DNA from: Lachnospiraceae bacterium
Lineage (GTDB): Bacteria; Bacillota; Clostridia; Lachnospirales; Lachnospiraceae
NCBI GenBank assembly: GCA_017940415.1
Contig: JAGAYR010000009.1
Coordinates: 1 to 64,000, forward strand
Length of the DNA stretch: 64,000 nt
Direction of reading: 5' to 3'
Every line of letters begins with the position of its first letter. Position 1 is the stretch's first letter. A program made the translations under genes and the position numbers. This document shows positions 1 through 62,400 of this stretch, piece by piece. The notes below the pieces were generated by a model. It made no database searches. It was not told where the DNA came from and saw nothing but the letters and a program-made list of their open reading frames with translations.

Positions 1-36
1 CAGGTGACAAAACGAAAGCGTCCCCACTGTCATCAT
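1..36. repeat. REP-like palindrome, right half (cut by window edge)
   Basis: The stretch reads TGACAAAACGAAAGCGTCCCC then ACTGTCATC, which matches the right arm of the palindromes at 25406-25475 and 62352-62400. The left arm would lie outside the window. It ends 4 bp from the stop codon of the von Willebrand lipoprotein gene, the same gene-end placement as other copies. Confidence 0.75.
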
Positions 37-40
37 AATA

Positions 41-1831
41 TTATTCCATCTCCTCAAGTATTCCTACGATGTAGATGAACTGAGCTTTCAGATCGTCTGT
101 CATGACTGAAGGATCCTGAGAGAGTCTTTCGATGATATCGTCGTAATCCGAATCTCCCGCAAAATCCGAATCTCTGTAGATCATTCCCACCTGAGCTACG
201 CCTGCGGCCCATGAGGTGTCGTAATCCATTTCTTCGGTGAACATTGAAGTGGTCACAGGGTAGGTTCTGAGCTCACTTTTGTCACCGTCGGGCTCTTTAT
301 ATCTGATGTTGAGTACGCAGTACTCGTCGGAGCCTGAGATGCTTGTTTCTTCATCGTTTCCGTATCTTGATTCAACGGTGGGTACATCATAGTCCGAGCC
401 TACGGGAACTATCTCGTAAAGGATTGTAACGGTCTGTCCTGATCCTACTTCACCGCCGTCCTTGGTATCATCCGAGAAATCCTCTGCAGACATCTGACGG
501 TTTTCGTAACCGATGATTCTGTATGCAGCTACGGTCTCGGGATTGAACTCAACCTGGAATTTGGTGTCCTTGGCTACGGTATAAAGAGTTGACCAGAGCT
601 CATTGCTGAGGGCTTTTTCCGCTTCATCGGTGCAGTCGATGTAGAAGTAGTTGCCGTTCCCGTGATCAGCAAGAGCTTCCATCTTGTCATCTTTGTAGTT
701 GCCGGCTCCGAATCCGAGGCAGGAGAGGAATACGCCGGTTTCTTTCTTTTCTTCGATGAGCTGGATAAGTCCCGCTTCCGAAGAAGTTCCCACATTGAAA
801 TCACCGTCGGTGCAAAGGATGACTCTGTTATTGCCACCTTCGATGAAATATTCCTGAGCGATGTCGTACGCTGTGATGATGCCGCCTGCACCGTTGGTGC
901 TTCCGCCTGCTTCAAGGGAATTAATTGCATCCTTGATCTCTTTGTGCTGGTCACCTCTGAGACCTTCCGCAACTACGGTTGATGAACCCGCATAGGTTAC
1001 TATTGAAACTCTGTCATTTTCGGTGAGATTTTTCTGAAGAGTCTTAAGTGCGTCCTGTGCAAGGGGAAGTCCGTTGTTCCAGAACATGGATCCTGAAGTA
1101 TCAACCAGGAATACGATGTTGGATCCGCCGGAGATATCCACCTCCTCGGCTCTTACGCCTACGCGGTACAGGAGAGTATCTTCATTCCAGGGGCAGGGCA
1201 CTATGGTCTGGCTTACGGAGAATTTTTCGCCGTCTTCGGCTGCGGGATAGGAGTAATCAAAATAGTTGATCATTTCCTCGATCCTGAGGGCATTGGGGTC
1301 AAGTCCGCCGTAACCGTAGCCGTAATCTTCGTGTTTATAAACGTCGTAAGCCTCATAAACGGTGCGTCTGAAGTTGGAATAAGTTGCCGTATCCACATCC
1401 GCCCCGAAGGTGGAGAATCTGTTGGATGCGGTATTGATAAAACCGGATTCGGTTATGCTGTTATAACCTTCCATATTCCAGGGGGTATCTGAATCTATGG
1501 GAGTTACGGGAATGCTGACGGTGCTCTGGGAAACCGCCGAATCATCACAGTCTTCGCACACCGCAGCATCATACATCACCATTCCGCCGTTATATGAATT
1601 GGTTGTTGCATATCCGCCTCCTGATGAGAAAAGAGAGAAGCCGTATCCGTCGTCGAGGCCGTCATAATGTCTTCCCACGTGTCTGATGCGGTCTTCGATT
1701 TCTTCCTGAGTATAGGTTACTTCAGGCTCCTGAACTTCCGCTACCCGGCCGCATGCCGTGAGCATCATTAGCCCTGCGATAAACAGGCTGATATAAGACT
1801 TTGAATATTTTCCGATATTTCTCTTTTTCAT
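41..1831 (-). CDS. von Willebrand factor A domain lipoprotein (YfbK-like)
   Basis: A 596-residue exported lipoprotein. The N-terminus is basic, then hydrophobic, and ends in a lipobox (LTAC, Cys about residue 27), so it should be anchored to the outer face of the membrane. Residues about 180-235 match the conserved region that precedes the vWA domain in YfbK-type proteins (EEMINYFDY, then a PCPWN stretch). The vWA domain follows with an intact MIDAS motif, DTSGSM, suggesting metal-dependent ligand binding. The C-terminal 190 residues resemble the DUF3520 tail of this family. Function is unknown; protein-protein adhesion or complex assembly is inferred. The start has a GGAGG ribosome site 8 nt upstream that lies inside a perfect 14-bp inverted repeat. 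No partner gene follows within the window. Confidence 0.9.
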   Translation of the reverse strand: MKKRNIGKYSKSYISLFIAGLMMLTACGRVAEVQEPEVTYTQEEIEDRIRHVGRHYDGLDDGYGFSLFSSGGGYATTNSYNGGMVMYDAAVCEDCDDSAVSQSTVSIPVTPIDSDTPWNMEGYNSITESGFINTASNRFSTFGADVDTATYSNFRRTVYEAYDVYKHEDYGYGYGGLDPNALRIEEMINYFDYSYPAAEDGEKFSVSQTIVPCPWNEDTLLYRVGVRAEEVDISGGSNIVFLVDTSGSMFWNNGLPLAQDALKTLQKNLTENDRVSIVTYAGSSTVVAEGLRGDQHKEIKDAINSLEAGGSTNGAGGIITAYDIAQEYFIEGGNNRVILCTDGDFNVGTSSEAGLIQLIEEKKETGVFLSCLGFGAGNYKDDKMEALADHGNGNYFYIDCTDEAEKALSNELWSTLYTVAKDTKFQVEFNPETVAAYRIIGYENRQMSAEDFSDDTKDGGEVGSGQTVTILYEIVPVGSDYDVPTVESRYGNDEETSISGSDEYCVLNIRYKEPDGDKSELRTYPVTTSMFTEEMDYDTSWAAGVAQVGMIYRDSDFAGDSDYDDIIERLSQDPSVMTDDLKAQFIYIVGILEEME

Positions 1832-1837
1832 AATAAA

Positions 1838-1891
1838 AATCCTCCGTCATACAGAGCAGTTTTTCTTTCCTGTCCTATATGACGGAGGATT
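1838..1891 (-). promoter_or_regulatory. 14-bp inverted repeat enclosing the Shine-Dalgarno of the vWA gene
   Basis: Positions 1838-1851 and 1878-1891 are perfect inverted copies (core ATCCTCCGTCATA / TATGACGGAGGAT) separated by 26 nt. In the transcript of the minus-strand gene the 3' arm contains the GGAGG ribosome site and is followed by UUUUU just before the start codon. The hairpin could block translation initiation or act as an attenuator terminator. Confidence 0.65.
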
Positions 1892-1968
1892 ATTACTCCG
1901 GGTCACAAAAATTTATAAACATCCTATTCGCCGTTTGCCTCGAATTTAAACATTACGGGCCAGAAGAA

Positions 1969-1990
1969 ATATTGAACCAAAATTCAATAT
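1969..1990. promoter_or_regulatory. Inverted repeat in the divergent intergenic region
   Basis: ATATTGAA (1969-1976) and TTCAATAT (1983-1990) form perfect 8-bp arms around CCAAAA. The repeat lies between the divergently transcribed vWA and SPFH genes, where an operator would be expected. No regulator gene adjoins it, so the assignment is positional only. Confidence 0.3.
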
Positions 1991-2079
1991 CACGCCTTAT
2001 AACGAACGATATACGGACATTATACAGCAACTGTGCGGGTTTGTGAATATCAGGCACCTGAAGGCACTTACGATATTTG

Positions 2080-2130
2080 TTGACAATCTGATATTTGGAT
2101 GATATCATAATGATATCAAATATAGGAGGA
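2080..2130 (+). promoter_or_regulatory. Promoter, operator-like palindrome and RBS of the SPFH gene
   Basis: TTGACA (2080-2085), a 17-bp spacer and TATCAT (2103-2108) form a good sigma-A promoter. The -10 lies in a perfect palindrome, GATATCAT-A-ATGATATC (2101-2117), suggesting an operator. AGGAGGA at 2124-2130 is the ribosome site. With transcription starting near 2115 the leader would be very short. Confidence 0.65.
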
Positions 2131-2137
2131 CTCAAAT

Positions 2138-3166
2138 ATGAGCAACACTAATAACAATGTTCAGGAAAAATTCATATCGGGGCATAAGACCGGAGGACTT
2201 GTTCTTTTCCTCGTCATAGTTTTATACATAGCGGCGATCCCCGTAGCCATCATTTGCGGAGAAAGCGGAATGTGGCCTCTGACGGTTCTTTCCATCCTCT
2301 GGCTGTGCCTCGGATGGATACTGCTTCTGGGACTTAAGGTTTTAAAACCCAATGAGGCACTTGTACTTACCCTTTTCGGCAAGTATGTTGGCACCCTCAA
2401 AGGTGACGGATTCTTCTTCGTAAATCCTTTCTGCACCGCTTTTAACCCCGCAGCGGGAACAAAGCTTGGACAGAGCGGAGATGTTAAGCCCACCGCTTCG
2501 GCACTTACCGTAAGTGCAAACGGAACCGCAGTTTCCGCCGCCGATCTGTACAGCAAGAAGATTTCTCTTAAGGTAATGACCCTTTCCAACAGCAAGCAGA
2601 AGGTTAACGACGTTCTCGGTAATCCCGTTGAAGTAGCTGTAGCTGTTATGTGGAGAGTAAAGGACACCGCAAAGGCCGTGTTCGAAGTTGATAACTTCAA
2701 AGAATATCTCTCCCTTCAGTGCGATACCGCAGTTCGTAATGTTGTTAAGATCTATCCTTACGACGTAACCGATAACGTAGACACCACCGGCGACGGTGAG
2801 GCAGATGACGGAAGCCTTAGAGGATCAACCGAACTTGTAGCAAGCCGTATCAAGGATGAGATCCAGAGCAAGGTTGAGAGCGCAGGTCTTGAGATCGTAG
2901 ATGCACGTATCACCTATCTGGCATATGCACCCGAGATTGCTGCTGCAATGCTTCAGAGACAGCAGGCTTCAGCCGTAGTCGATGCAAGAAAACTCATTGT
3001 CGATGGCGCTGTCGGAATGGTTGAACTTGCACTCGAGCGTCTTAATGAAAAGAACACCGTTGTGCTTGACGAAGAAAGAAAGGCAGCCATGGTTTCCAAT
3101 CTCCTGGTAGTTCTGTGCGGTAACCATGACGCGCAGCCCGTAGTTAATTCGGGCAGCCTGTACTGA
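2138..3166 (+). CDS. SPFH/Band 7 domain membrane protein
   Basis: A 342-residue protein of the stomatin/prohibitin/flotillin (SPFH) superfamily. Two adjacent hydrophobic segments (about residues 17-36 and 43-65) anchor it. The conserved KPNEALVLTLFGKYVGT follows, which opens the Band 7 fold, then a helical C-terminal part rich in Glu, Ala and Lys typical of oligomerising SPFH proteins. SPFH proteins form large membrane-associated rings or scaffolds; the specific client here is unknown. AGGAGGA 7 nt upstream fixes the start. The stop codon overlaps the next start by one base (TGATG), implying translational coupling with the ribbon-helix-helix gene. Confidence 0.88.
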   Translation: MSNTNNNVQEKFISGHKTGGLVLFLVIVLYIAAIPVAIICGESGMWPLTVLSILWLCLGWILLLGLKVLKPNEALVLTLFGKYVGTLKGDGFFFVNPFCTAFNPAAGTKLGQSGDVKPTASALTVSANGTAVSAADLYSKKISLKVMTLSNSKQKVNDVLGNPVEVAVAVMWRVKDTAKAVFEVDNFKEYLSLQCDTAVRNVVKIYPYDVTDNVDTTGDGEADDGSLRGSTELVASRIKDEIQSKVESAGLEIVDARITYLAYAPEIAAAMLQRQQASAVVDARKLIVDGAVGMVELALERLNEKNTVVLDEERKAAMVSNLLVVLCGNHDAQPVVNSGSLY

Positions 3167-3378
3167 TGGCAGAAAAAAAGCAGGTGCCTCTCAGATTATC
3201 TGAGAAGCTTTACAAAGAACTTGCCGCTTGGGCCGAAGATGATTTCAGATCATTGAACGGTCAGATCGAATACCTTCTGACGGAATGTGTCAAACAGCGC
3301 AAGAAGGACGGCAAGTATGTGGGCAAAGATATTGATGCTCCTTTGGACATAAATCTGGAGGACACAAAGCCCAAATAA
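3166..3378 (+). CDS. Arc-like ribbon-helix-helix protein
   Basis: A 70-residue protein beginning with a ribbon-helix-helix fold: a short strand (KKQVPLRLSEKLY) followed by two helices with the Arc-like R-S-L-N turn (DDFRSLNGQIEYLL). The tail is acidic and probably disordered. Such folds normally bind DNA as dimers and often serve as antitoxins, but no toxin-sized ORF adjoins it. It starts on the last base of the SPFH stop codon, so its level is tied to that protein. A role in regulating the pair, or as a soluble partner of the SPFH scaffold, is inference. Confidence 0.8.
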   Translation: MAEKKQVPLRLSEKLYKELAAWAEDDFRSLNGQIEYLLTECVKQRKKDGKYVGKDIDAPLDINLEDTKPK

Positions 3379-3412
3379 GCCTAAATTCAAGCACAAAGGA
3401 TAATAATGCGCC

Positions 3413-3446
3413 ACAGGGGAACGGACTTGTCCGTTCCCCTGTTTTT
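3413..3446 (+). terminator. Rho-independent terminator
   Basis: CAGGGGAACGGA / TCCGTTCCCCTG form a perfect 12-bp stem with a CTTG loop followed by TTTTTG. It closes the SPFH-ribbon-helix-helix operon. Confidence 0.93.
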
Positions 3447-3560
3447 GTTGTCGGGAAAGGGCGATTATTGTACAATGGCGTAGTAGAGAAATAAAGTGTT
3501 GAACAATAGTCTTTTCTATTACTATTTTCAATCTTATGAGCAGGGGTAAGTAATAAGACT

Positions 3561-6500
3561 ATGGTGACTGCAGATAGTATAATCGATGTACTAATGTTGC
3601 TTACTGCCATTATCGGCATGCTGGCAAGTTTGTACAGTTATATCGAAAAGCCCAACAAGGGATGGCTGTTCCTTACGGGCTACTATTTTGCGAGCTTTCT
3701 GAGCGGATATTACTGGATCACTTCGACTCTTGTAACTCACGTGGAGCCGAACGTTTCGCAGTTTACCGCATATCTGGGATGGAACGCGTCTTACGTTGTC
3801 CTTCTTTTTGCCATCTATGAGATGAGGAATCCTGCGACAAAAGGATTCTGGCCTTTTCTGATCTTTATTCCCGTCCCCTTAAATATTGTCCAGTTCTTTT
3901 TATATATTCAGTTCGGCGGATGGTTCAACAATGCATGGCAGGTTTCTTTTTCCACCGTCATAATGGTCTTCTGCCTGCAGTCACTTGTTTTCCACAACAA
4001 CAATAAAAAAGACGGAAGCGCCTTTCCCTATTTTAACGGACTGGTGCTTACTTTCCTGTTTGCCGAATATGTAACCTGGACGGCTACATGCTTCGACTGG
4101 CCCAGCAACGCCAAAAATCCTTATTACTACTTCTCGGTCATCTCTTATGTTGCACAGATCTTCATGCCTTGGGGCATGAAAAAAGAATACGAAGCCCGCG
4201 GCGTTAAGAAAAGTGACAGTTCCTCTACCGAGATCAAGTTCCAGGCGGTGCTCCAGGTTATCGTATCTTTCATAGTCTTCGGAGGATGTATCGGGGGTTA
4301 TTACCTGGCTCTCAGAATGAAGGATGCACTTCCGGAGGGCGTTGATACTGCGGATTCCTACACCCTCATCACAACCATGCTTTTCCTGGTATCGGTATTT
4401 CTGGGAGTGCTGATACTTATTGTCATATTCTTTATCACCATCAGATACAGGGCTGAGTATGCAAGCAAGCCCGATATGCCCGAGATCAAGGAAACGGTCA
4501 GATTAAAGAGAAGTAAGACGAATCTTTTCCTGACCCTTCTGATAACCTTCTCACTTATGACCTTTGCGGTTATATACAATTCCAAGCTGTTCTTCAGAAC
4601 CTATGCTTCGGGTGTTTACAGTTCCGGAGAGGACAAGACTAAAAACATCTCCACGGAAATGGACAATTATCTGACTCTTGCCATGTCCACGCTGAATGTT
4701 GCCGCCGAAACGGTTGATTACATGCTGGAGAACGGAAACAGCAGCGATGAGATCTGCGACTATATCTATGATCAGACACAGAGACAGTTCGAGAATTTTG
4801 ATGAAAACTTCACGGGTCTGTATGCCGTTGTAAACGGAGAATATATGGATGGAGACGGATGGATTCCGCCCACGGATTATAAACCCATGACCAGAGACTG
4901 GTATAAAACTGCGGTTGCGGGAGAAGGCGAGATAGTCATCGTATCACCCTATGTGGATGCACAGACTAATTCCGTTGTCATAACCGTCTGTAAGATGCTT
5001 AAGCATAAATCAAAAGACATAAACGGCAGGCTCTTATACAATGTGGTCGGACTTGATGTTAAGGCAAATCACATTCAGGAGATAACCGAGTGGGCTGATA
5101 TCGGAGGTAACGGTTATGCGATGATCGTCAATTCCGACGGCTTTATAGTGGCCCATCGTGATATGGCACTTCGCGGACTCATGGCTGATGATGTCTATGG
5201 ACAGGATTTCATGAACAATGTGGTGGATAAGAATGATTCCACCTTTGACCAGATTGTAAACGGAGAGGAATATACTTTCTTTACCAGTCAGGTAATGAGT
5301 CAGTGGTATGTTGTCATGGCGGTCAGAAATTCCGACCTGCTGGATGAAGCATATTCACAGGTTACAGTCAACGTCATGGTATCCCTTACCATATTTGTGC
5401 TCATTTCCATTTTCTATTATCTGGGTTACAGGAATGAGCAGGCCTACGGTAAGAAAGTCGAAGAGATGAGTTTCAACAGACAGAAGCAGGAGTATGAAGC
5501 TCAGGTTCTCCGTCTGGAAAAGAGATCCGCCGATGCCGCGAATAAAGCAAAGAGCAGCTTCCTTGCGGATATGTCCCATGAGATAAGAACGCCCATCAAC
5601 GCAATTCTGGGAATGAATGAGATGATAATGCGAGAGGCTGATTCTCCAAATATCCGGGAATATTCCGGCAACATCAAAAATTCCGGCAGGAACCTTCTTC
5701 AGCTCATCAACTCGATACTGGACTTCTCCAAGATCGAAGACGGCAAGATGGAGATCGTTCCCGTAAGATACAGCCTGAGATCTCTCATTACTTACCTGGT
5801 CAATTCCATTCAGGAGAGAGCGGATTCCAAGAATCTTGATTTCATAGTCAAGGTGGATCCGGGGCTTCCCTGTGAGATGAACGGTGATGATGCGCGTATC
5901 AATCAGATCATCCTGAATCTACTTACAAATGCGGTTAAATACACTCCTGCGGGAAGCGTAACTCTCACCATTCAGGAAAAAGAAAGAGAAGATGACAGAG
6001 TGCTTCTTCATGTATCCGTTGCGGATACGGGAATAGGCATCAAGGAATCCGACATGGGCAAGCTCTTCGAATCCTTCGAAAGGCTTGATGTCGTGCGTAA
6101 CCGTACCATCGAAGGTACCGGACTTGGAATGTCCATAACCACAAGACTTCTTGACCTGATGGACAGCGGACTGAATGTTCAGAGTAAGTACGGAGAAGGC
6201 TCCGTGTTCTCTTTTGACCTGTGGCAGAAGATAGAAAATCCTCAGCCCATGGGAGAATACAGAATGGGAAGAGTTGACGATGATTCCCATGTATATACTG
6301 AATCATTCCATGCGCCGGGCGCTCATATCCTTCTGGTAGACGACACCCATATGAACATTCTGGTTGTTGTAAATCTCCTCAAGAAGACCGGAGTACAGAT
6401 CGATACCGCGGAGAGCGGAGAAGCTGCGATCGAGCTTGCGGATAAGAGAGCATATGACGCAATCCTGCTGGATCAGCGCATGCCCGGAATGGATGGAACC

Positions 6501-7238
6501 GAAACGCTCGGTCATATAAGAGCGCTTGAAAGCAGGCTGAATGAAAAGACTCCCGTTATATGTCTGACTGCGGACGCCATTAGAGGAGCCAAGGAAAGAT
6601 ATCTGGCACAGGGCTTTACCGACTATCTGACCAAGCCTGTTGAGGGAAGAACGCTTGAACAGATGCTCTTGACCTATCTGCCCGCGGATAAAGTTACAAG
6701 AGGAAACAAACCCGCAGCTGTAGCAGATATGACACCGGTGAGGGTAGAGAATGTGAGTGAAAGTGCTCCTGCATCCGCCACACAAAAAGGTGATATCATC
6801 GGTGAATTGTCCGCTGCCGGATTCGATACGGAAAAGGCAATGGTATTTACCCACAATGACGTGGATTTCTACCGTACGATCCTTACCGTATTTGCATCGG
6901 AATATGAAGAGAGATATGCGAAGTTAAATGAATATTACAGTTCCAGGAACTGGAAAGATTACTCGATCCTGATCCATGCCATCAAGAGCAATGCCACCAC
7001 CATCGGGGCAATGGGGCTTGCGGAGAAGGCGGCGCTTATGGAGCAGGCCACCAAGAATGGTGAAGAAGTGACCATCGGCAATGAGCACGAAAATGCGCTG
7101 GCTTTGTACTCGGATGCGGCACTTATCGTCAAAAGAGTACTGGGAGTCGGCGGAGGACTCGGAATCGGTGACGCCGATATCATGGAATTTGCACCGGACA
7201 AAGAGCCGGAGATATTCGAATTCGAACCTGACAGATGA
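3561..7238 (+). CDS. Hybrid sensor histidine kinase with Cache sensor, receiver and Hpt
   Basis: A 1225-residue membrane phosphorelay protein. About seven or eight hydrophobic segments fill residues 1-300. A further segment near 320-345 leads into an extracellular dCache-like domain (about 350-590), closed by a segment near 597-617. A short coiled coil follows. The HisKA motif SHEIRTPIN places the phosphoacceptor at His673, and the ATPase domain has a recognisable N box and GTGLGM. The receiver has DD near residue 925 and phosphoacceptor Asp971 (ILLDQRMPGMDG). A C-terminal Hpt domain carries IHAIKSN with His1139. It therefore holds a full His-Asp-His relay but no DNA-binding output, and no response regulator adjoins it. 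The ligand is unknown. The start ATG has only a weak AGGGG 14 nt upstream. The stop codon lies inside a palindromic repeat. Confidence 0.92.
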   Translation: MVTADSIIDVLMLLTAIIGMLASLYSYIEKPNKGWLFLTGYYFASFLSGYYWITSTLVTHVEPNVSQFTAYLGWNASYVVLLFAIYEMRNPATKGFWPFLIFIPVPLNIVQFFLYIQFGGWFNNAWQVSFSTVIMVFCLQSLVFHNNNKKDGSAFPYFNGLVLTFLFAEYVTWTATCFDWPSNAKNPYYYFSVISYVAQIFMPWGMKKEYEARGVKKSDSSSTEIKFQAVLQVIVSFIVFGGCIGGYYLALRMKDALPEGVDTADSYTLITTMLFLVSVFLGVLILIVIFFITIRYRAEYASKPDMPEIKETVRLKRSKTNLFLTLLITFSLMTFAVIYNSKLFFRTYASGVYSSGEDKTKNISTEMDNYLTLAMSTLNVAAETVDYMLENGNSSDEICDYIYDQTQRQFENFDENFTGLYAVVNGEYMDGDGWIPPTDYKPMTRDWYKTAVAGEGEIVIVSPYVDAQTNSVVITVCKMLKHKSKDINGRLLYNVVGLDVKANHIQEITEWADIGGNGYAMIVNSDGFIVAHRDMALRGLMADDVYGQDFMNNVVDKNDSTFDQIVNGEEYTFFTSQVMSQWYVVMAVRNSDLLDEAYSQVTVNVMVSLTIFVLISIFYYLGYRNEQAYGKKVEEMSFNRQKQEYEAQVLRLEKRSADAANKAKSSFLADMSHEIRTPINAILGMNEMIMREADSPNIREYSGNIKNSGRNLLQLINSILDFSKIEDGKMEIVPVRYSLRSLITYLVNSIQERADSKNLDFIVKVDPGLPCEMNGDDARINQIILNLLTNAVKYTPAGSVTLTIQEKEREDDRVLLHVSVADTGIGIKESDMGKLFESFERLDVVRNRTIEGTGLGMSITTRLLDLMDSGLNVQSKYGEGSVFSFDLWQKIENPQPMGEYRMGRVDDDSHVYTESFHAPGAHILLVDDTHMNILVVVNLLKKTGVQIDTAESGEAAIELADKRAYDAILLDQRMPGMDGTETLGHIRALESRLNEKTPVICLTADAIRGAKERYLAQGFTDYLTKPVEGRTLEQMLLTYLPADKVTRGNKPAAVADMTPVRVENVSESAPASATQKGDIIGELSAAGFDTEKAMVFTHNDVDFYRTILTVFASEYEERYAKLNEYYSSRNWKDYSILIHAIKSNATTIGAMGLAEKAALMEQATKNGEEVTIGNEHENALALYSDAALIVKRVLGVGGGLGIGDADIMEFAPDKEPEIFEFEPDR

Positions 7239-7495
7239 CACTGGGGACGGTTCTTACTGACACATTTAGAATACTCACGGGTCCTGCCGTCTGATATTAC
7301 CGTTCTCGCTTTTCGACGTCAGGCGTAAAATGCTTCACGAGACACGTTCTCACTCATGACGCGAGGCCACTCACTTTGTTCGGGCCGGGCGGCCGCATTT
7401 TTTCGCAGACGTCGAAGTCTCGACCGATAATATCCTGACGTCACCCGTAGACTTTATCTTTATGTGTGTCAGTAAGAACCATCCCCAATGTCATC
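7234..7495. repeat. 262-bp long imperfect palindrome (MITE-like, REP-related)
   Basis: The ends are inverted copies: GATGACACTGGGGACGG plus TTCTTACTGACACA on the left, and the complement with three differences on the right. The interior is also an imperfect palindrome; for example CGTCTGATATTACCG on the left mirrors CGATAATATCCTGACG on the right. The whole element could fold into one long hairpin centred near 7365. It shares GGGGACG ends with the shorter palindromes in the window. The TGA stops of the kinase (7236-7238) and of the AraC gene (7491-7493) lie within its ends. No ORF of note is inside. Confidence 0.8.
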
Positions 7496-8360
7496 TTTTA
7501 TCACGGTATTTTTTCGGTGTTTCTCCGTATTCTTTTTTGAAACAACGGATCATGTGGCTGGCGTCGGAGAAGCCGGTTTCCTGGCTTATGGTGTTTAAGT
7601 CGTCCTTGGTATCTTTAAGTAGCTGGGCAACTTTTCTGACGCGGATCAGTTCTATGTAATTCTTGCAGGGGCGTCCGAACATCTTGATGAATTTCTTGGA
7701 AAATCCCGAGTAACTTAAATTGCACATTCTAGCCAGGTCTTCAACTCTGAGTTCTTCGGAGATGTTCTCGTCAATATAGGCGGGAAGGGCTTCGATTGAG
7801 ATAGTCTCCATAACGGTACTGTCCAGAGCTTCGGGAGTAAGACCTTCTTTTTGCCATATCCTGATTATGTCCGTTAAGATGATGTGAACCGCGGCACTGA
7901 CTGCGGAGATATAGCCCGAATCCTGAACCTGCATTTCTTTGATGGCAAGATTCATCATCTGTTTGATATCTGTTTTCTTTACCATGGAAACCGGAAAGTG
8001 GGCGCGGACGTTTTTGTCCGTTACCGCCATTTTAAAAAGAGACAGTTCGGTCCATTTCATTTCGCGTCCGGGCTGCTGTTCATGCTGATTGCCCGGCTTG
8101 AATTTGATTCCGTAATATTTTGCGTTTTCGCTTACAATCTTTAGCGAATGCATGACGGAGGGAAGCAGTACGATGACCTCGCCTGCTTTTGCCGTGATCT
8201 CACTGTTTCCTATCTGCATCTCCATTTCGCCTTCTATCATGAGAAGGATCTCCATGAAATAATGCCAGTGAAGTCCTATATGGTACCCTTCCGGATAATT
8301 CCCGGTAAAACACTCATATTTATGGTCCAGTACATCCGAATACTCGAATTTATCAGCCAT
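7491..8360 (-). CDS. AraC family transcriptional regulator with cupin-like sensor domain
   Basis: A 289-residue regulator. The N-terminal half is a cupin-type sensor barrel (residues about 10-100; histidines in YPEGYHIGLHWHYFMEIL and a GEVIVLLPSVMHSL stretch). The C-terminal 100 residues are a double helix-turn-helix AraC domain (LRVEDLARMCNLSYSGFSK, then the second helix-turn-helix TISQETGFSDASHMIRCFKK). Proteins of this layout usually activate carbohydrate genes on binding a sugar. It is divergent from the SDR/transketolase pair, its likely target. A TGTTC-N7-GAACA repeat at 8417-8433 in the shared promoter region may be its site. The stop codon lies in the palindromic element. Confidence 0.9.
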   Translation of the reverse strand: MADKFEYSDVLDHKYECFTGNYPEGYHIGLHWHYFMEILLMIEGEMEMQIGNSEITAKAGEVIVLLPSVMHSLKIVSENAKYYGIKFKPGNQHEQQPGREMKWTELSLFKMAVTDKNVRAHFPVSMVKKTDIKQMMNLAIKEMQVQDSGYISAVSAAVHIILTDIIRIWQKEGLTPEALDSTVMETISIEALPAYIDENISEELRVEDLARMCNLSYSGFSKKFIKMFGRPCKNYIELIRVRKVAQLLKDTKDDLNTISQETGFSDASHMIRCFKKEYGETPKKYRDKR

Positions 8361-9266: not shown

Positions 9267-11018
9267 ATGGAATACATATTACTTAACTCTATAAAAGGTC
9301 CCGAAGATGTAAAGAAGATCCCGGAAGAAAAACTTCCCGAACTTGCCAAAGAGATAAGAGAAGCTCTTTTTAACCGTCTTACCAAAAAGGGCGGACATTT
9401 TGGCCCCAATTTCGGAATGGTAGAGATGAGCATTGCTCTTCACTATGTTTTCGAATCTCCTAAGGATCAGTTTGTTTTTGACGTAGCACATCAGACTTAT
9501 CCTCACAAGATGCTCACGGGACGTGCCAAAGCATATACCGACGATGAGCATTTCGGTGAGGTCGGCGGATTTACCAATCCCGCAGAGTCCGAGCACGATA
9601 TGTTCTATATAGGTCATACCTCTACTTCGGTAAGCCTTGCAACGGGCCTTGCACACGGAAGAGACGTAATCGGCAAAAAAGGAAATGTGGTTGCGATAAT
9701 CGGCGACGGTTCATTAAGCGGAGGAGAGGCTTTGGAAGGCCTTGATTACGCCGGCGAGATGAATACAAATCTAATAATCATAGTCAATGACAATGAGCAG
9801 TCCATTGCGGAAAACCACGGCGGATTATATAAGAATCTGGCACAGCTCAGGGAATCCGGCGGTAAGTGCGTGACTAATCTTTTCAAGTCCATGGGACTTG
9901 ATTACAGATATGTGGAAGAAGGAAATGATATCTCTGCACTTATAAAGGCATTCAAAGAGGTTAAGGATATCGATCATCCCACGGTTGTGCATGTACACAC
10001 CATAAAAGGCAAGGGATATCAAAGAGCCGAGGAAAACAGAGAAGACTGGCACTGGTTCCCTCCTTTTGACAGAGAGACCGGTGAGCCTTTGAATAAGTGG
10101 GGCGGTGAGTCATATAACTCCATTTTCGCAGATCACTTACTCGAAAGACTTGAAAGTGATAAGAGCATCGTAGTGGTAACCGCGGCTGTCCCGGGTGCAG
10201 TAGGTCTGGGGCAGGAAGTGCGATCCAAGATGGGCAAAAACTATGTGGACGTAGGCATTGCCGAAGAACAGGCTACGGCTATGTGTTCAGGTATCGCCAA
10301 AAACGGAGGAAAGCCCGTCTTTGCAACTAATGCCACATTCGCTCAGAGAGTCTATGACCAGATGACTCAGGACGTAAGCCTTAATAAGAGCGCCGTGACA
10401 CTTCACTTAAGCTCATCATCCATATTCGGAATGGGCGATGCGACTCATATAGGTATCTCAGCCATAGGAATGTTTTCCAATATTCCCGGTCTTGTGTATA
10501 TGTGTCCCACCAGCAAGGAAGAGTACCTGGCAATGCTTGACTACTCCATTGATCAAAACGATCATCCCGTAGTTCTGGCTGTTCCCTGTGACGGTGTAAA
10601 TCATGCGGCTTATCCCGTATGCACCGATTTTGACGCAGTTACATACCAGATCTGCGAGAAGGGTGAAGATATCGCAATCCTTGCACTGGGTGATTTCTTC
10701 AATATCGGCAGAAAGACCGCGGAATACATTGAGGAGAAAAACGGCAAGAAAGTAACCCTGATCAATCCCAGGTTTGCAACGGGACTTGATGAGAAGACTC
10801 TTGATGAACTTCTCAAAGCTCATAAGACCATAGTCACTCTTGAAGACGGAATCTTAGACGGAGGCTTCGGTCAGAAGGTCGCTTCCTACTATGGCAATAA
10901 GGATGTGAAGGTGTTTAACTACGGCTTCGAGAGAAAATTCTACGACGGTGTCAACGTAGCTCAGGTTCTTGAAGAGAGAAGGATCACTCCCGAGCTTATC
11001 TATGAGGATATCGTATAA
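9267..11018 (+). CDS. DXS-like thiamine-diphosphate transketolase
   Basis: A 583-residue ThDP enzyme with the one-chain layout of 1-deoxy-D-xylulose-5-phosphate synthase. GGHFGPNFGMVE and DVAHQTYPHKMLTGR match the DXS amino-terminal domain. The ThDP/metal motif is GDGSLSGGEALEG ... NDN near residues 150-180. The pyrimidine domain has the catalytic Glu in GIAEEQA, where true DXS usually has AEQHA. It is shorter than the usual 620-residue DXS. Coupling to an SDR and an AraC regulator suggests a catabolic paralogue acting on a sugar phosphate, but housekeeping Dxs cannot be excluded. GGAGG precedes the ATG. A palindromic repeat directly follows the stop codon. Confidence 0.85.
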   Translation: MEYILLNSIKGPEDVKKIPEEKLPELAKEIREALFNRLTKKGGHFGPNFGMVEMSIALHYVFESPKDQFVFDVAHQTYPHKMLTGRAKAYTDDEHFGEVGGFTNPAESEHDMFYIGHTSTSVSLATGLAHGRDVIGKKGNVVAIIGDGSLSGGEALEGLDYAGEMNTNLIIIVNDNEQSIAENHGGLYKNLAQLRESGGKCVTNLFKSMGLDYRYVEEGNDISALIKAFKEVKDIDHPTVVHVHTIKGKGYQRAEENREDWHWFPPFDRETGEPLNKWGGESYNSIFADHLLERLESDKSIVVVTAAVPGAVGLGQEVRSKMGKNYVDVGIAEEQATAMCSGIAKNGGKPVFATNATFAQRVYDQMTQDVSLNKSAVTLHLSSSSIFGMGDATHIGISAIGMFSNIPGLVYMCPTSKEEYLAMLDYSIDQNDHPVVLAVPCDGVNHAAYPVCTDFDAVTYQICEKGEDIAILALGDFFNIGRKTAEYIEEKNGKKVTLINPRFATGLDEKTLDELLKAHKTIVTLEDGILDGGFGQKVASYYGNKDVKVFNYGFERKFYDGVNVAQVLEERRITPELIYEDIV

Positions 11019-11097
11019 GTGACATTGGGGACGCTACTATTTTGACATCCGGCGACGATGTCGACGGATGTCAAAATAGTAGCGTCCCCACTGTCAC
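11019..11097. repeat. REP-like palindrome
   Basis: Two arms of about 33 bp, GTGACATTGGGGACGC... and its complement ending GCGTCCCCACTGTCAC, flank a short centre. The variable stem segment here is TACTA/TAGTA. It starts one base after the TAA stop of the transketolase gene. It has no T-run and so is not a standard terminator. Confidence 0.88.
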
Positions 11098-16566: not shown

Positions 16567-16636
16567 GTGACAGTGGGGACGCTGCTATTTTGTCATCGAA
16601 TTCTTATGAAAAAATAGCAGCGTCCCCATCTGTCAC
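16567..16636. repeat. REP-like palindrome
   Basis: A 70-bp hairpin, GTGACAGTGGGGACGC... against ...GCGTCCCCATCTGTCAC. The variable stem segment is TGCTA/TAGCA. It sits 15 bp after the DHH stop, and the GGAG just after its right end serves as ribosome site for the next gene. Confidence 0.88.
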
Positions 16637-20122: not shown

Positions 20123-20150
20123 CAGGGGGACGGTTCCTGTGTTTCACTGT
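20123..20150. repeat. REP-like fragment
   Basis: The stretch contains GGGGGACGGTTCCTGTG, close to the GGGGACGGTTCTTAC arm of the 7234-7495 element, but no matching second arm is found. It is taken as a decayed or half copy between the terminator and the GntR promoter. Confidence 0.45.
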
Positions 20151-20265: not shown

Positions 20266-20649
20266 ATGGACATTATTATCAGCAATGCCTCGGGTGTGCC
20301 CATCTATGAGCAGATCGAGGAACAGATCAAGAGCCTGATCATGACAGGTGAACTTGCGGCAGGGGACGCCCTTCCGTCAATGAGGATTCTGGCTAAAGAT
20401 CTTAAGATCAGTGTCATTACAACTAAGAGAGCATTCGAAGATCTCGAGCGTGACGGCTACATCGAATCCGTTGTAGGTAAGGGAAGTTTTGTAAAAGGAA
20501 TCAATCCTGAACTTATGAAGGAGACCATGAAGTACGCCATTGAAGAGTGTCTTGAAAAGGCTGCCGACAAAGCAGTCATGGGCAAGATATCCCTCGATGA
20601 ACTTAAAGAAATGCTGGAGATCATTTACGAGGAAAAAAAGCAGAAATAG
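20266..20649 (+). CDS. GntR family regulator, YtrA subfamily
   Basis: A 127-residue protein with an N-terminal winged helix (PIYEQIEEQIKSLIMTGEL, then LPSMRILAKDLKISVITTKRA and a GKGSFV wing) and only a short helical C-terminus. That short form is characteristic of the YtrA subfamily, which represses adjacent ABC transporter genes and often responds to cell-wall antibiotics. It heads the ABC operon. Its TAG stop shares its last base with a small palindromic repeat. Confidence 0.9.
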   Translation: MDIIISNASGVPIYEQIEEQIKSLIMTGELAAGDALPSMRILAKDLKISVITTKRAFEDLERDGYIESVVGKGSFVKGINPELMKETMKYAIEECLEKAADKAVMGKISLDELKEMLEIIYEEKKQK

Positions 20650-20675
20650 ATGACAGTAGCGTCCCCGATGTCATC
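20649..20675. repeat. Short REP-like derivative
   Basis: GATGACAGTAGCGTCCCC followed by GATGTCATC. It looks like a deletion product keeping the left terminus and the right arm of the longer palindromes. It fills most of the gap between the GntR and ABC ATPase genes. Confidence 0.7.
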
Positions 20676-24081: not shown

Positions 24082-24745
24082 AGAATTGAAAAAATTTCAG
24101 GATCTGAAATACCGAGACATGCAGGTGAAGATAATCTCGACGGTAGAGCCTTCATCCATTATAGGGGTAAGGACTCCGGAGCTTAAAGCTATGGCCAAGG
24201 AGATTTTAAAGTCAGGCGATTACGAGGATTTCCTGAATGATCTTCCCCATAAATATTTCGAGGAAAACCAGCTTCATGCATTTATTCTTTCCGGCATGAA
24301 AGATGCTGAAAGTTGCTTCGAAGAGCTTGAGAAATTCCTGCCCTACGTCGATAACTGGGCAACCTGCGATCAGATGTCACCGAAGGTATTTAAGAAGCAT
24401 AAGGATGAGCTTCTTAAGCGTGTTAAAGAGTGGATCAGGTCGGATGAGACTTATACCGTAAGATTCGGAGTAGGTATGCTCATGGAGCATTTCCTTGATG
24501 ATGATTATGATGTAAAATATCCCGAAATGGTGGCAAAACTCAGATCGGACGAGTATTACGTAAATATGATGATCGCCTGGTATTTTGCCACAGCTCTCGC
24601 AAAACAGTACGATACTATCATCCCTTACATCGAGAAAAAGAAACTTGATAAGTGGACGCATAACAAGGCTATACAGAAATCTGTGGAAAGCTATCGTATT
24701 ACCGATGAGCAGAAGACTTACCTAAAGACTTTAAAAATCAAGTGA
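24059..24745 (+). CDS. DNA alkylation repair protein (AlkD-like)
   Basis: A 228-residue all-helical HEAT-like repeat protein of the AlkD/AlkC-like family. The conserved stretch near residue 100 is DNWATCDQMSPK, where Asp and Trp in the family line the DNA-base pocket. It would excise bulky or cationic alkyl bases. It overlaps the CPBP gene by 23 bp, so it is co-transcribed. Its TGA stop lies inside a half palindromic repeat. Confidence 0.88.
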   Translation: MKKTDLHKELKKFQDLKYRDMQVKIISTVEPSSIIGVRTPELKAMAKEILKSGDYEDFLNDLPHKYFEENQLHAFILSGMKDAESCFEELEKFLPYVDNWATCDQMSPKVFKKHKDELLKRVKEWIRSDETYTVRFGVGMLMEHFLDDDYDVKYPEMVAKLRSDEYYVNMMIAWYFATALAKQYDTIIPYIEKKKLDKWTHNKAIQKSVESYRITDEQKTYLKTLKIK

Positions 24746-24756
24746 CAGTGGGGATG
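24742..24756 (+). repeat. Half REP-like element giving a stop codon and a ribosome site
   Basis: GTGACAGTGGGGATG is the left terminus of the palindrome family without its partner arm. Its TGA is the stop of the AlkD-like gene, and its GGGG lies 8 nt before the ATG of the HAD gene with no other SD candidate nearby. Confidence 0.65.
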
Positions 24757-24761
24757 TAAAC

Positions 24762-25409
24762 ATGCACTACACTCATATCTTATTTGACCTTGACGGAACT
24801 CTCACGGACTCCGGCCCCGGAATCATGAACGGCTTTGAATATGCCATTACCCAAATGGGAGGATCTGTGGAAGACAGATCACAGCTCAGGAAGTTTGTGG
24901 GTCCTCCTCTTGAAGAATCCTTCGGAAAAATTCTGGGCTATTCTCCCGAAGATACGGAGAAAGCCATTGCAATCTACAGAGAGTATTATTTTCAAAAGGG
25001 CGGAGTGCTGGAAAATGAAGTATATCCCGGTGTCGTAAAGCTCCTTGAAGATCTTAAGGAAATGGGACTGCATACCGCCGTTGCAACATCCAAGTTTGAA
25101 AAGGGAACAATGATCGTTCTGGATCATTTTGATCTGAAAAAATATTTTGAATTCATCGGATGCGGTAATGATACGGATCGTAAGACCAAGAAAGATATCA
25201 TCAGCTATGTCATCAGGGAAGCCGGTATCACGGACCTCAGTAAGGTCCTTATGGTGGGAGACAGGTGCTATGATATTGATGCCGCAAGAGAAGTGGGAAT
25301 TGATTCCGCAGGCGTACTGTACGGATACGGAAACGAAGAGGAATTAAAAAATGCCGGAGCCACATATATTGCAGCTACGGCAGAGGATATTAAGAATATT
25401 ATTAAGTGA
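24762..25409 (+). CDS. HAD family hydrolase (phosphoglycolate phosphatase-like)
   Basis: A 215-residue HAD phosphatase. Motif I is FDLDGTLTDS (residues 7-16, nucleophile Asp), motif II is ATSKF, the Lys of motif III follows near 145, and motif IV is MVGDRCYDIDAA. The helical cap inserted after motif I gives the Gph/PpaX-like layout. The physiological substrate is undetermined. The stop codon TGA is the start of the palindrome at 25406. Confidence 0.9.
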   Translation: MHYTHILFDLDGTLTDSGPGIMNGFEYAITQMGGSVEDRSQLRKFVGPPLEESFGKILGYSPEDTEKAIAIYREYYFQKGGVLENEVYPGVVKLLEDLKEMGLHTAVATSKFEKGTMIVLDHFDLKKYFEFIGCGNDTDRKTKKDIISYVIREAGITDLSKVLMVGDRCYDIDAAREVGIDSAGVLYGYGNEEELKNAGATYIAATAEDIKNIIK

Positions 25410-25475
25410 CAGTCGGGGACGCTTCTGTTTTGTCATCGAAGTCTGATGACAAAACAGAAGCGTCCCCACTGTCAC
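25406..25475. repeat. REP-like palindrome between convergent genes
   Basis: A 70-bp hairpin with arms GTGACAGTCGGGGACGC... and ...GCGTCCCCACTGTCAC. The variable stem segment is TTCTG/CAGAA. It supplies the TGA of the HAD gene and ends exactly at the base before the TAA of the convergent HD-GYP gene. It is the only sequence between the two genes. Confidence 0.9.
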
Positions 25476-58366: not shown

Positions 58367-58468
58367 CCCCCCTTTTAACCATAAAAATATGCTAAAATGG
58401 ACCAAGGTGCCAAAAATTCAAATCCCTTGAAACCCAGTAACCATGAGCAAAAGGTGGAAAAATCGAAA

Positions 58469-58924: not shown

Positions 58925-58934
58925 TAATGTGAAG

Positions 58935-58969
58935 CATCGGAATTCGATACAACGAGTTCCGATGTTTTT
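58935..58969 (+). terminator. Rho-independent terminator
   Basis: CATCGGAATTCG / CGAGTTCCGATG stem with one wobble and a 6-nt loop, then TTTTT. It ends the phosphatase transcript. Confidence 0.9.
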
Positions 58970-58992
58970 ATGTGCTAAAAATATTTTTAAAA

Positions 58993-59015
58993 ATAAGTAT
59001 TGCAATAATACTTAA
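58993..59015. promoter_or_regulatory. Predicted NrtR operator 1 of the NAD salvage operon
   Basis: ATAAGTATT-GCAAT-AATACTTAA, with 8 of the arm positions perfect. It overlaps the probable -35 region (TTGCAA at 59000-59005, 16 bp before TATAAT at 59022-59027). Confidence 0.75.
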
Positions 59016-59027
59016 AATGTGTATAAT
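59000..59027 (+). promoter_or_regulatory. Promoter of the NAD salvage operon
   Basis: TTGCAA, 16 bp, TATAAT (59022-59027). It is bracketed by two NrtR-type palindromes, so bound repressor would cover both the -35 and the start point. Confidence 0.65.
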
Positions 59028-59035
59028 GAATTTAG

Positions 59036-59060
59036 ATTAAGTATTGATACAATACTTAAC
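59036..59060. promoter_or_regulatory. Predicted NrtR operator 2 of the NAD salvage operon
   Basis: ATTAAGTATT-GATAC-AATACTTAAC; the inner 9-bp arms are perfect. Centre-to-centre distance to operator 1 is 44 bp, about four helical turns, so two dimers could sit on one face. Confidence 0.8.
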
Positions 59061-59162
59061 AGCAGACTCACATTCATACAAATTGTAAGATTACTGAAAC
59101 GGATTGTGCTTTATCAAGCTAAAGTCTATTATTGATTTATATCGGAAACGGAGGACCCTATT

Positions 59163-59720
59163 ATGGCTAAGAAAATCATCGTAGTAGTTGATATGCAGAA
59201 GGATTTCATCGACGGAGCACTGGGAAGTGCAGAAGCAGTAAAGATCGTTGACCGCTGCGCGGAAAAGATAAAGGCAGCTAAAGCTAACGGTGATACCGTT
59301 ATTTTCACAAGAGACACTCACTTTGATAACTACATGAACACCGAAGAGGGAAAGAACCTTCCCGTTCCCCACTGCATCAAGGGAAGCGACGGCTGGCAGA
59401 TAACCGGAGCACTTGCCGGCATCATCGAAGATCCCGTTATCCTAGACAAAGAAACCTTCGGAAGCAGAGATCTGGGAAAGCTCGTTGCCGAGAAACTTGC
59501 TGAAGGTGATTATGACGGAATTGAACTCTTCGGACTTTGCACCGATATCTGCGTGATCAGCAACGCACTTCTTATCAAAGCTTTCTGTCCCGATATCCCT
59601 ATTTATGTAGATGCATCCTGCAGCGCGGGTGTATCTCCCGAAAGCCACGACACAGCACTTAAAGCAATGGAAACCTGTCAGATTCACGTAACCGGAAAGG
59701 GTGAGGAGCCTTGGAGATAA
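59163..59720 (+). CDS. pncA: Nicotinamidase
   Basis: A 185-residue cysteine hydrolase of the isochorismatase fold. The catalytic triad is Asp10 (VVDMQKDF), Lys near 106 and Cys in FGLCTDICVISN near 141. The metal site TRDTHFDNY and the LPVPHCIKG stretch are diagnostic of nicotinamidase. It deamidates nicotinamide to nicotinate, first step of the operon's salvage route. CGGAGG precedes the ATG. It overlaps nadD by 10 bp. Confidence 0.93.
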   Translation: MAKKIIVVVDMQKDFIDGALGSAEAVKIVDRCAEKIKAAKANGDTVIFTRDTHFDNYMNTEEGKNLPVPHCIKGSDGWQITGALAGIIEDPVILDKETFGSRDLGKLVAEKLAEGDYDGIELFGLCTDICVISNALLIKAFCPDIPIYVDASCSAGVSPESHDTALKAMETCQIHVTGKGEEPWR

Positions 59721-60352
59721 CCAGGATCTACAACATAGCATTGTTCGGAGGAACCTTCGATCCGTTCCATATGGGACATTACGAGCTTCTGAAGAATTTC
59801 ACTGAAGAGATTAAGCCCGATAAGATCTATGTCATTCCCGCAGGACATCCTTACTTTAAGGAAAATGAAGGCAAGAAAGTAAGCTCTGCCGCAGATCGCA
59901 TAGAGATGACCAAAGCTGGTCTGAAGGACCTTGATATTCCCTGGGAGATCTCGACGGTTGAAACAGACAAAGATACTCCGAGTTATTCCATAGAGACTAT
60001 CAGGTATTTCCGTAAAAAAGGAATTCCCGGGGAATCGGGCGCCGGTCATTTAAAGATATGGTTCCTTTGCGGAAGTGACTTGCTCTTTGAGATAGACAAA
60101 TGGTACAAATATGAAGAGATCCTTTCTTCCGTCACTCTGGCGGTCATACCCAGAGGAGATGATGATGTTGAAGAGATCCTTGTACGTAAAAAAGAGATGG
60201 AAGATAAGTACGGCGCTAAGATCTATATCTCCGAATACCGTGGCAGAAAGCTTTCTTCCACGATGATAAGAGAAAATCCGGAAAAGTATAAAGATCTCAT
60301 TCCGAGCGGAACATATGAGTATATATGTGAGCACGGACTGTACGGAACCTGA
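59711..60352 (+). CDS. nadD: Nicotinate-nucleotide adenylyltransferase
   Basis: A 213-residue nucleotidyltransferase. FGGTFDPFHMGHYELL near residues 12-27 holds the HxGH-type motif; the C-terminal ATP motif is LSSTMIREN. It adenylates nicotinate mononucleotide to deamido-NAD. The start is a TTG 3 nt after GAGGAG and inside pncA; no ATG is available upstream of the essential first strand, so a TTG start is likely. A short hairpin with a T-run follows before pncB. Confidence 0.9.
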   Translation: MEITRIYNIALFGGTFDPFHMGHYELLKNFTEEIKPDKIYVIPAGHPYFKENEGKKVSSAADRIEMTKAGLKDLDIPWEISTVETDKDTPSYSIETIRYFRKKGIPGESGAGHLKIWFLCGSDLLFEIDKWYKYEEILSSVTLAVIPRGDDDVEEILVRKKEMEDKYGAKIYISEYRGRKLSSTMIRENPEKYKDLIPSGTYEYICEHGLYGT

Positions 60353-60365
60353 CGATAAACGGTTT

Positions 60366-60385
60366 ACCTTCGCGTGAAGGTTTTT
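60366..60385 (+). terminator. Weak intra-operon hairpin
   Basis: ACCTTC-GCGT-GAAGGT followed by TTTTT lies between nadD and pncB, 15 bp before the pncB start. The stem is only 6 bp, so it may reduce rather than stop transcription of the distal genes. Confidence 0.5.
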
Positions 60386-60399
60386 GAAAGGAGTTATAT

Positions 60400-61599
60400 A
60401 TGGAACAGATCATCAACAGCCTGCTTGAAACAGACCTCTACAAATTTTCAATGGGACAGGCAATCTATCATCAGTTCCCCAGCTACACCACAACCTGGAC
60501 ATTCAGATGCAGAAACACAGATGTTCGCTTTACTCCCGAAATGGTCGAGGAGATCAAGCGTCAGATCAAGATGTACTGCGAGCTGAAGTTCACTGAGGAA
60601 GAGCTGGAATATCTCGGCAAGATCACATGGTTCCGGAGATCCTACGTCGATTTCTTAAGACTCTGGCATCCCAGATTCGAGGATTTCGAGATAGGTACCA
60701 AGGCACCTTGCGGACTTACCATCGAGACAAAGGGAACCTGGCTTAATACTTCCATGTATGAGATTCCTACACTTGCCATCGTAAACGGTGTTTATTTCCG
60801 TATGGGATTTGACTATGACAAGCTTCTTGCAAGCTTTAAAGAGCGCCTTGATGACAAGATCAAGAAGCTTGAGGACGGAACCTGGAAGATCGGAGCTTTC
60901 TCCGAATTCGGTATCAGAAGAAGATTATCCGCAGAGGCACAGGAGCTGGCTGTTTCTGAGCTGGCAAAGGCTAAACTGGACGGTTCTCTTTTCGTAGGAA
61001 CTTCCAATGTATATCTGGCTAAGAAATTCGGATTAAAGCCCGTCGGAACCATGGCTCATGAGTGGATCATGTGTGTAGGCCAGGGTAATCACAAGCACAA
61101 TCCAGCTTACTCCAACTGGTATGCACTTGATGCGTGGGTCAAAGAGTACGGAGTCCTCAACGGAACCGCACTTACCGATGCCATTACCACCGATTGCTTC
61201 CTTAAGGATTTCCAGCTTACATATGCGACTCTTTTCTCCGGCGTAAGACAGGACAGCGGCGATCCCATGAAGTGGGGCGATAAGATGATCAAGCATTACG
61301 AAAAGCTTGGCATTGATCCTAAGACCAAGACCCTTCTTTTCTCTGACTCTCTTGATTTTGAGAAAGCAAATAATATCAATGCATATTTCAAGGACAGAGC
61401 AAAGGTTGCATTCGGTATCGGAACTTATGTTGCCAATGACACCGAGGTTCCCGCTCTTAACATCGTAATGAAGACTACCGAGTGTAACGGTATGGATGTT
61501 GCTAAGATTTCCGATAGTGAAGGCAAGGGAATGTGCAAGAATCCCGATTATGTAGATTATCTGCAGCGTACCATCGACTGGAGAATGAAGCACGAATAA
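60400..61599 (+). CDS. pncB: Nicotinate phosphoribosyltransferase
   Basis: A 399-residue enzyme of the proteobacterial-type PncB length. The start MEQIINSLLETDLYKFSM is typical; the active-site histidine region is MAHEWIMCVGQGNHK, with GVRQDSGDP downstream. It makes nicotinate mononucleotide from nicotinate and PRPP. GAAAGGAG precedes the ATG. It stands 47 bp after nadD and 10 bp before nadE. Confidence 0.95.
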   Translation: MEQIINSLLETDLYKFSMGQAIYHQFPSYTTTWTFRCRNTDVRFTPEMVEEIKRQIKMYCELKFTEEELEYLGKITWFRRSYVDFLRLWHPRFEDFEIGTKAPCGLTIETKGTWLNTSMYEIPTLAIVNGVYFRMGFDYDKLLASFKERLDDKIKKLEDGTWKIGAFSEFGIRRRLSAEAQELAVSELAKAKLDGSLFVGTSNVYLAKKFGLKPVGTMAHEWIMCVGQGNHKHNPAYSNWYALDAWVKEYGVLNGTALTDAITTDCFLKDFQLTYATLFSGVRQDSGDPMKWGDKMIKHYEKLGIDPKTKTLLFSDSLDFEKANNINAYFKDRAKVAFGIGTYVANDTEVPALNIVMKTTECNGMDVAKISDSEGKGMCKNPDYVDYLQRTIDWRMKHE

Positions 61600-61609
61600 G
61601 AGGTAGACT

Positions 61610-62347
61610 ATGCTTGCAAATGTTGAAAAAACAGTAAATGATGTGACCGAATGGATCAAAGAATATTTTGAAACAAAGGGAAAAGGATGCAAGGCGGTTC
61701 TCGGAATATCCGGCGGTAAGGATTCCTGCATTACCGCAGCGCTTCTTGCAAGAGCTTTGGGAAAAGAAAGAGTAATCGGAGTCCTTATGCCCAACGGAGT
61801 TCAGCCCGATATCAGCGATTCCGAAGCAGTTGTTGAATTTCTCGGGATTGAACACATGGTCGTAAATATCGGAGAGACTGTTGAAGCACTTAAGAAGGCG
61901 CTTACTGATGCGGGCTCCAATGTTTCCAAAGATACTACGATCAACATCCCTCCCAGAGTACGCATGACCACTCTCTATGCCGTGGCTCAGGGACTGGATT
62001 GCGGCGGAAGAGTCATCAACACCTGCAATAAATCCGAGGACTATATCGGATACAGCACCAAGTTCGGCGATGCTGCCGGCGACATGTCCATCCTTGCGGG
62101 CTTTACCGTAGAAGAAGTTCTTCAGATGGGAGAGTACCTCGGTCTTCCCGAGCATCTCGTTCACAAGACACCTTCAGACGGACTTAGCGGAATGAGCGAT
62201 GAAGATAAGATCGGCTTTACCTATAAGGTACTGGATAAATACATCGCTACCGGAGAGTGCGAGGATCCGGACATCAAGGCCAAGATTGACCGCATGCACG
62301 TTATGAATCTTCATAAACTGGAGCTTATGCCCCATTACGAACCTTAA
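61610..62347 (+). CDS. nadE: NH3-dependent NAD(+) synthetase
   Basis: A 245-residue N-type ATP pyrophosphatase. The P-loop is GISGGKDSC near residues 31-39, followed by NTCNKSEDYIGYSTKFGD and KTPSDGLSGMSDEDKIGF. It amidates deamido-NAD using ammonia, since no amidotransferase domain is present. Last gene of the pncA-nadD-pncB-nadE operon, which thus encodes the whole route from nicotinamide to NAD. Confidence 0.95.
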   Translation: MLANVEKTVNDVTEWIKEYFETKGKGCKAVLGISGGKDSCITAALLARALGKERVIGVLMPNGVQPDISDSEAVVEFLGIEHMVVNIGETVEALKKALTDAGSNVSKDTTINIPPRVRMTTLYAVAQGLDCGGRVINTCNKSEDYIGYSTKFGDAAGDMSILAGFTVEEVLQMGEYLGLPEHLVHKTPSDGLSGMSDEDKIGFTYKVLDKYIATGECEDPDIKAKIDRMHVMNLHKLELMPHYEP

Positions 62348-62351
62348 TAAC

Positions 62352-62400
62352 AGCTGGGGACGCTTCATTTGATGACAAAAATGAAGCGTCCCCACTGTCA
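62352..62400. repeat. REP-like palindrome
   Basis: GGGGACGCTTCATTT (62356-62370) pairs with AAATGAAGCGTCCCC, and the right flank is ACTGTCA. The variable segment is TTCAT/ATGAA. The left terminal GTGACA of other copies is altered to ACAGCT. It lies 4 bp after the nadE stop codon. Confidence 0.85.

Follow-up and report, generated by a model that had tools for sequence, protein, structure and literature searches.

The window analysed here, a stretch of 64,000 nucleotides from a Lachnospiraceae bacterium, is the start of contig C46 in a 2.69-Mb assembly (G000) of 48 contigs that is 84% complete, and it holds nine sites at which a palindromic motif or parts of it recur. Three of these are complete doublets of inverted arms: 11019..11097, a TACTA variant abutting the TAA stop of ORF 9267-11018; 16567..16636, a TGCTA variant whose right arm has a one-base bulge; and 25406..25475, a TTCTG variant between converging genes. 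The doublet at 62347..62401, a TTCAT variant, has a shortened left arm in which the inner part is missing, and at 1..36, on the reverse strand, motif search found a single doublet arm truncated by the start of the contig. The short copy at 20649..20675 (reverse strand) and the fragment at 24742..24756 (forward strand) are partial copies or remnants, and the congener G012 has full doublets in the corresponding positions, of 69 and 70 nt, respectively. The fragment at 20123..20150 is of a different REP family (TGAAACAGGGGGACGGTTC). The largest site, 7233..7496, is by sequence comparison a composite element in which 32-nt inverted REP-like ends (7233-7264 and 7465-7496), 94% matched, with a different second half (GACGGTTCTTACTGACACA) and 200 nt between them, surround a repeat core of about 121 bp (7304-7424); the TGA that stops ORF 3561-7238 belongs to the element. 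A sequence-only reading had proposed that the nine sites share one motif and that a 5-nt stem segment, different in each complete copy, is matched by its partner arm. All nine do hold the motif or parts of it, but 7233-7496 and 20123-20150 belong to other families; the TACTA, TGCTA, TTCTG and TTCAT segments are each paired by the partner arm in their own copy, and beyond them the stems are imperfect, with a mismatch at 11019 and a one-base bulge at 16567, 25406 and 62347.

The main type is a genome-wide family and not a handful of copies, a point on which the same reading had made its proposal depend: exact TGACANNGGGGACG occurs 65 times in G000, and 86 and 244 times in G012 and G027, the two motif-rich congeners among 59 genomes compared, with none in the reversed control. 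G007 has six occurrences, and none of the remaining 55 genomes has more than one. We take G012 to be Lachnospiraceae bacterium P6A3, with which it has an identical protein, and G027 to be the yak-rumen MAG RGIG10136. Within one mismatch of GTGACAGTGGGGACGC there are 38 places in G000 (reversed control 0), and covariance model matches, counted on both strands, number at least 81 in G000, 104 in G012, 112 in G027 and 18 in G007. No Rfam family reached its gathering threshold. The complete unit, of 63-102 nt, is an inverted pair of REP-like arms of about 31 nt, the layout of a REPIN, with the arm consensus RTGACA-NN-GGGGACG-CTNCTN-TTTTGTCAYC and a spacer that ranges from one base to about forty. 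Examined stretches of the three genomes held 107 doublets. Four were removed, two as the outer ones of nests and two as members of a second family, and the 103 kept comprise 27 from G000 and, as the part of all copies found among the matches listed, at least 48 from G012 and at least 28 from G027. The length is 63-102 nt in 94 of the 103 and shorter in nine. All 103 consist of two inverted REP units with a spacer that can fold to one hairpin and, as expected of REPINs, the copy number is high and the location mostly extragenic; a GTAG-type tetranucleotide is absent at the element ends, which are RTGACA/TGTCAY.

The doublets lie mostly at gene ends. A stop codon is found within 20 nt of 83 of 101 doublets, whereas of 400 intergenic points drawn at random in the window 21% have one that close; 96 of the 101 have one no more than 80 nt from at least one end. 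The stops counted are those of open frames of at least 75 codons, and the two outer nested doublets and four near locus ends are left out. In 28 of the 139 stops of this kind the codon ends flush with the element, and in 18 the element itself provides it as a TGA. Pairing continues for one base past the unit (matched in 72 of 101, 35 expected) and no further. The occurrence of REPs near gene ends, and the supply of a stop codon by REP ends, are both described in passages of PMC3733652. The search for empty sites that had been proposed on the basis of the window was only partly successful, in that G016 lacks the element at the gene end matching 7233-7496 but has a different downstream neighbour, and G012 lacks the 11019 doublet but has a different repeat in its place.

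The absence of a transposase from the window, as first noted, holds for Y1 transposases, the sole family tested, and extends to the assembled genome, in which searches with the Pfam profile, the G012 protein and a two-sequence profile found no Y1 protein. A RAYT-type gene flanked by such palindromes, for which a search had been suggested, is present in both congeners, although none was found in the incomplete genome of the window itself. In G012 a 267-aa ORF with a Y1_Tnp domain (L031:5564-6367) lies between two 80-nt palindromes differing at one base, and in G027 a relative that is 70% identical (L032:1187-1930) is flanked by palindromes at 948-1014 and 1927-1995, the inner half of which, GTACCCC..TGTCAGG, is unlike that of the main type. 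Five contigs other than C46 end within elements (L001, L002, L007, L059, L075) and C46 starts within one, so that a gene between near-identical palindromes could be missing from the assembly. The two transposase genes both lie near what we take to be the same xylulokinase-like gene, 99% identical between G012 and G027; in G007 the xylulokinase-like gene is present and such a transposase was not found. Among 23 related loci of named genomes, inverted repeats of differing sequence flank both ends of the gene in seven (including G012 and G027) and one end in three, and were not found beside it in 13; among 11 further Y1 loci, L037, of the same family, has GGGGGACGGGG palindromes on both sides. 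The A1 profile matched in 14 of the 59 genomes, and since 12 of these 14 have 0-1 exact motifs, transposase and motif coincide in the closest pair only. A separate observation concerns a transporter gene, presumably of the MATE type, which is inverted between G012 (L031:3453-4961) and G007 (L194:870-2328), a breakpoint falling in the interval where palindrome L031:4882-4961 lies.

The RAYT-type protein has a Y1_Tnp domain above the Pfam cut-off and a HUH motif that appears as HVH in the alignment (H69 and H71 of the first sequence), and it misses the 80-bit cut-off of NCBIfam REP_Tyr_transpos, at 54.7 and 54.9 bits. As a candidate C-terminal helix-turn-helix, HTH_23 is matched in five of 12 relatives (best E 1.2e-4), with a weak match in G012 itself (E 0.039). 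A PDB sequence search with both transposases returned nothing, and a single-sequence structure model was poor (mean pLDDT 37.5). Lacking the GTAG tag and falling short of the curated REP-transposase cut-off, the system is taken as a variant of the REPIN/RAYT kind; the sequence features suggest that the transposase is like a RAYT of the inverted-repeat (TIRYT) kind and that the element works like a REPIN.

The covariation of the arms that was seen in the window extends across the family. In a set of 28 doublets, pairing holds in 96.3% of stem cells; both partners have changed in 62 cells, where shuffling gives 19 ± 3, and sliding the partner abolishes the signal. In 86 doublets, from which nine of less than 62 nt and eight of the G027 GTACCCC type are excluded (one copy of that type, L177:365, is kept), the variable positions give 209 matched, 50 one-sided and 20 differently changed cells, where about 36 matched would be expected, a figure summed from a per-position table for independent arms. 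The conserved positions give 16 matched, 42 one-sided and two differently changed cells, with 0.9 matched expected. Changes in one arm without compensation, which the sequence-only reading had named as evidence against maintained pairing, are thus present, with matched changes still in excess of those expected for independent arms. Common arm variants, such as A/T at position 18 and T/C at position 30, recur across copies. At positions 7-8, the TGACA/GGGG junction, 44 of the 86 doublets have a mismatch or bulge (a bulge in 21), and the adjoining core pairs are near-perfect.

Because relatedness among copies inflates tests of this kind, a comparison was made of copies that share a place in different species. 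Such copies are linked by flanks that are mostly 75-92% identical. In the set both doublets of a comparison measure 62 nt or more; it includes one triple (L080, L183, L166) and leaves out linked places where the element is short, single, nested, rearranged or cut by a contig end. The 16 comparisons, with 495 arm positions, yield 38 concerted, 30 one-sided and seven other changes, where 2.4 concerted changes would be expected of independent arms, and at least one concerted change is found in 14 of the 16. Omission of L040/L176, in which the entire inner part differs as a block, leaves 29 concerted and 30 one-sided changes, and further omission of two comparisons of the triple leaves 26 and 29. 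Where the doublet at 25406-25475 has TTCTG in both arms, its G012 counterpart has TACAG twice. Each arm of L054 reads GGGAACG at a place where G012 has the consensus in both, and L054 and L149 differ by a single matched pair. By eye, the spacer of 25406 is inverted relative to that of L142, and a bulge has switched arms between L085 and L155.

One reading of matched arms is that they descend from a matched master, the copies at the same place being independent insertions at favoured targets. The recurrence of the common variants at positions 18 and 30 in many copies, the evident preference for stop codons as targets and the block difference of L040 and L176 are all as this would have it, but concerted changes in nearly all same-site comparisons, several of them between otherwise like elements as in L054/L149, and the restriction of GTGACAGTGGGAACGC, in the genome's complete motif list, to the two arms of L054, make it improbable. 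Gene conversion between copies could also make arms agree. L040/L176, L050/L171, L139/L164 and L145/L159 shift to shorter-spacer forms common in G027, and the block difference in the first of these suits exchange with another copy, or a fresh insertion, better than copying inside the palindrome, so that one of these processes contributes as well; that conversion alone is responsible is nevertheless unlikely, given single-palindrome changes with no donor in the assembled genome, from which 16% is missing.

The remaining choice is between selection on the hairpin and copying of one arm from the other, the two causes that had been offered for compensatory change in the window. Under selection the arms would mutate singly and a second mutation would restore a pairing that is needed in the folded strand, either as DNA for the transposase or as RNA that terminates the transcript or stabilises its 3' end. 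One-sided states of the required sort exist, in the 50 and 42 cells counted above, and doublets at gene 3' ends would be transcribed. Selection for RNA pairing would predict G-U mismatches on the transcribed strand; wobble mismatches number 26 on the sense and 22 on the antisense strand, with no clear bias, and selection at the RNA level is not supported. Also against selection on the hairpin are changes in both arms of the GGGGACG core. Among 94 long doublets, the core is intact in both arms in 85, changed in one arm in five and has the same change in both arms in four; in nine short doublets the corresponding counts are four, two and three. Core changes should harm recognition, and most of the short palindromes lack the inner half, so that selection by the transposase is also an unlikely cause. 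On balance selection for the hairpin, which is how compensatory REPIN changes are read in passages of PMC3116915, seems rather unlikely as the explanation. Compensation is not by itself proof of selection, and copying is the better fit both to the core changes and to the wobble counts. Besides the block difference, two observations stand against copying as well: the mismatch or bulge at positions 7-8, which copying should erase, is kept in about half of the doublets, and one-sided changes are common (30 in the same-site comparisons and 92 cells in the 86 doublets). Arm-to-arm copying, by template switching together with exchange between copies, is favoured over RNA-hairpin selection, though not proven.

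The sites in the window are probably intact and decayed copies of a mobile, non-autonomous REPIN-type palindrome whose arms tend not to drift apart once it has inserted. The palindromes would most likely have spread as folded single strands moved by a Y1/HUH transposase of the RAYT/TIRYT type, such as that of the two congeners. They lie mostly at gene ends, often abutting the stop codon. Once in place, one arm may serve as template for the other during replication, by hairpin template switching, and exchange between copies would assist, so that new variants appear in both arms. We suggest tentatively, as something a little short of an even chance, that REPIN arms are self-correcting, each rewritten from the other at its own place and on the time scale of species, in short remnants too and despite the likely recognition core of the transposase, and that compensatory change is largely a by-product of replication. 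Covariation is routinely read as selection for structure, and many same-site copies in several species, broken ones among them, provide a natural test of what copying alone can do.

Parallels with known systems are close but incomplete. REPINs and RAYTs of Pseudomonas fluorescens SBW25, as described in parts of PMC3116915, share the inverted REP doublets, the hairpins, the extragenic location and the link to a Y1 transposase; the elements here differ in the lack of a GTAG-type tag, the GGGGACG core, the Lachnospiraceae host and the same-site evidence across species. TIRYT genes and TIRtrons (PMC3733652, in part) and TnpAREP subclass 2.1 (PMC6006769, in part) likewise have a Y1/HUH gene flanked by long inverted repeats. 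Excerpts on TIRYT repeats give them a GGGGWSAS motif, of which GGGGACGC matches seven of the eight letters, and describe them as also dispersed and dimeric, with a C-terminal helix-turn-helix in most of the proteins. TIR families are called moderately abundant in a passage of PMC3733652, and one in PMC6006769 reports finding no REP-like sequences next to subclass 2.1 genes, whereas here there are up to 244 arms. CGTC-tagged REPs, in the portion of PMC3733652 that treats them, resemble the present family in that CGTC is the complement of GACG and in lying near gene ends; here CGTC is inside the paired stem and not an unpaired end tag, and a transposase is associated. Our literature search found no paper describing REPINs in large numbers together with a TIRYT-like transposase in Lachnospiraceae, the case seen here. 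Template switching at quasipalindromes makes arms alike in one event and inverts spacers (PMC8604942; PMC8794818; PMC7202029), the relevant passages concerning yeast genes, an E. coli assay and rRNA stems and not REPINs. Reports of compensatory REPIN arms date from 2011 (PMC3116915, in part), and REP sub-families with alternative, complementary residues in their stems were described in 2013 (PMC3733652, in part); the addition here is the same-place evidence across species, remnants included. A bulge is needed in E. coli REPs according to a passage of PMC8266576, which recalls positions 7-8 here.

Two further repeat types accompany the main family. The second REP family, GTGAAACAGGGG(G)ACGGTTC..GTCGTTCC, has the GGGGACG core too (20123-20150; L061:271-339; L083:320-385), and L061 is a doublet of this family (TGAAACAGGGGGACGGTTC). 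Nested elements, doublet within doublet and second-family within first-family, are seen at L161:394-493, L162:356-456 and L083:301-401. The core of about 121 bp found in the composite element forms a dispersed family in its own right, occurs in seven of 31 searched genomes (L218-L236) and has, by eye, a co-varying internal stem (TTCGACGTC/GACGTCGAA and variants). The outer inverted pairs of its copies vary widely in sequence, and in 10 of 18 the match within a copy is at or above the 95th percentile of matches between copies.
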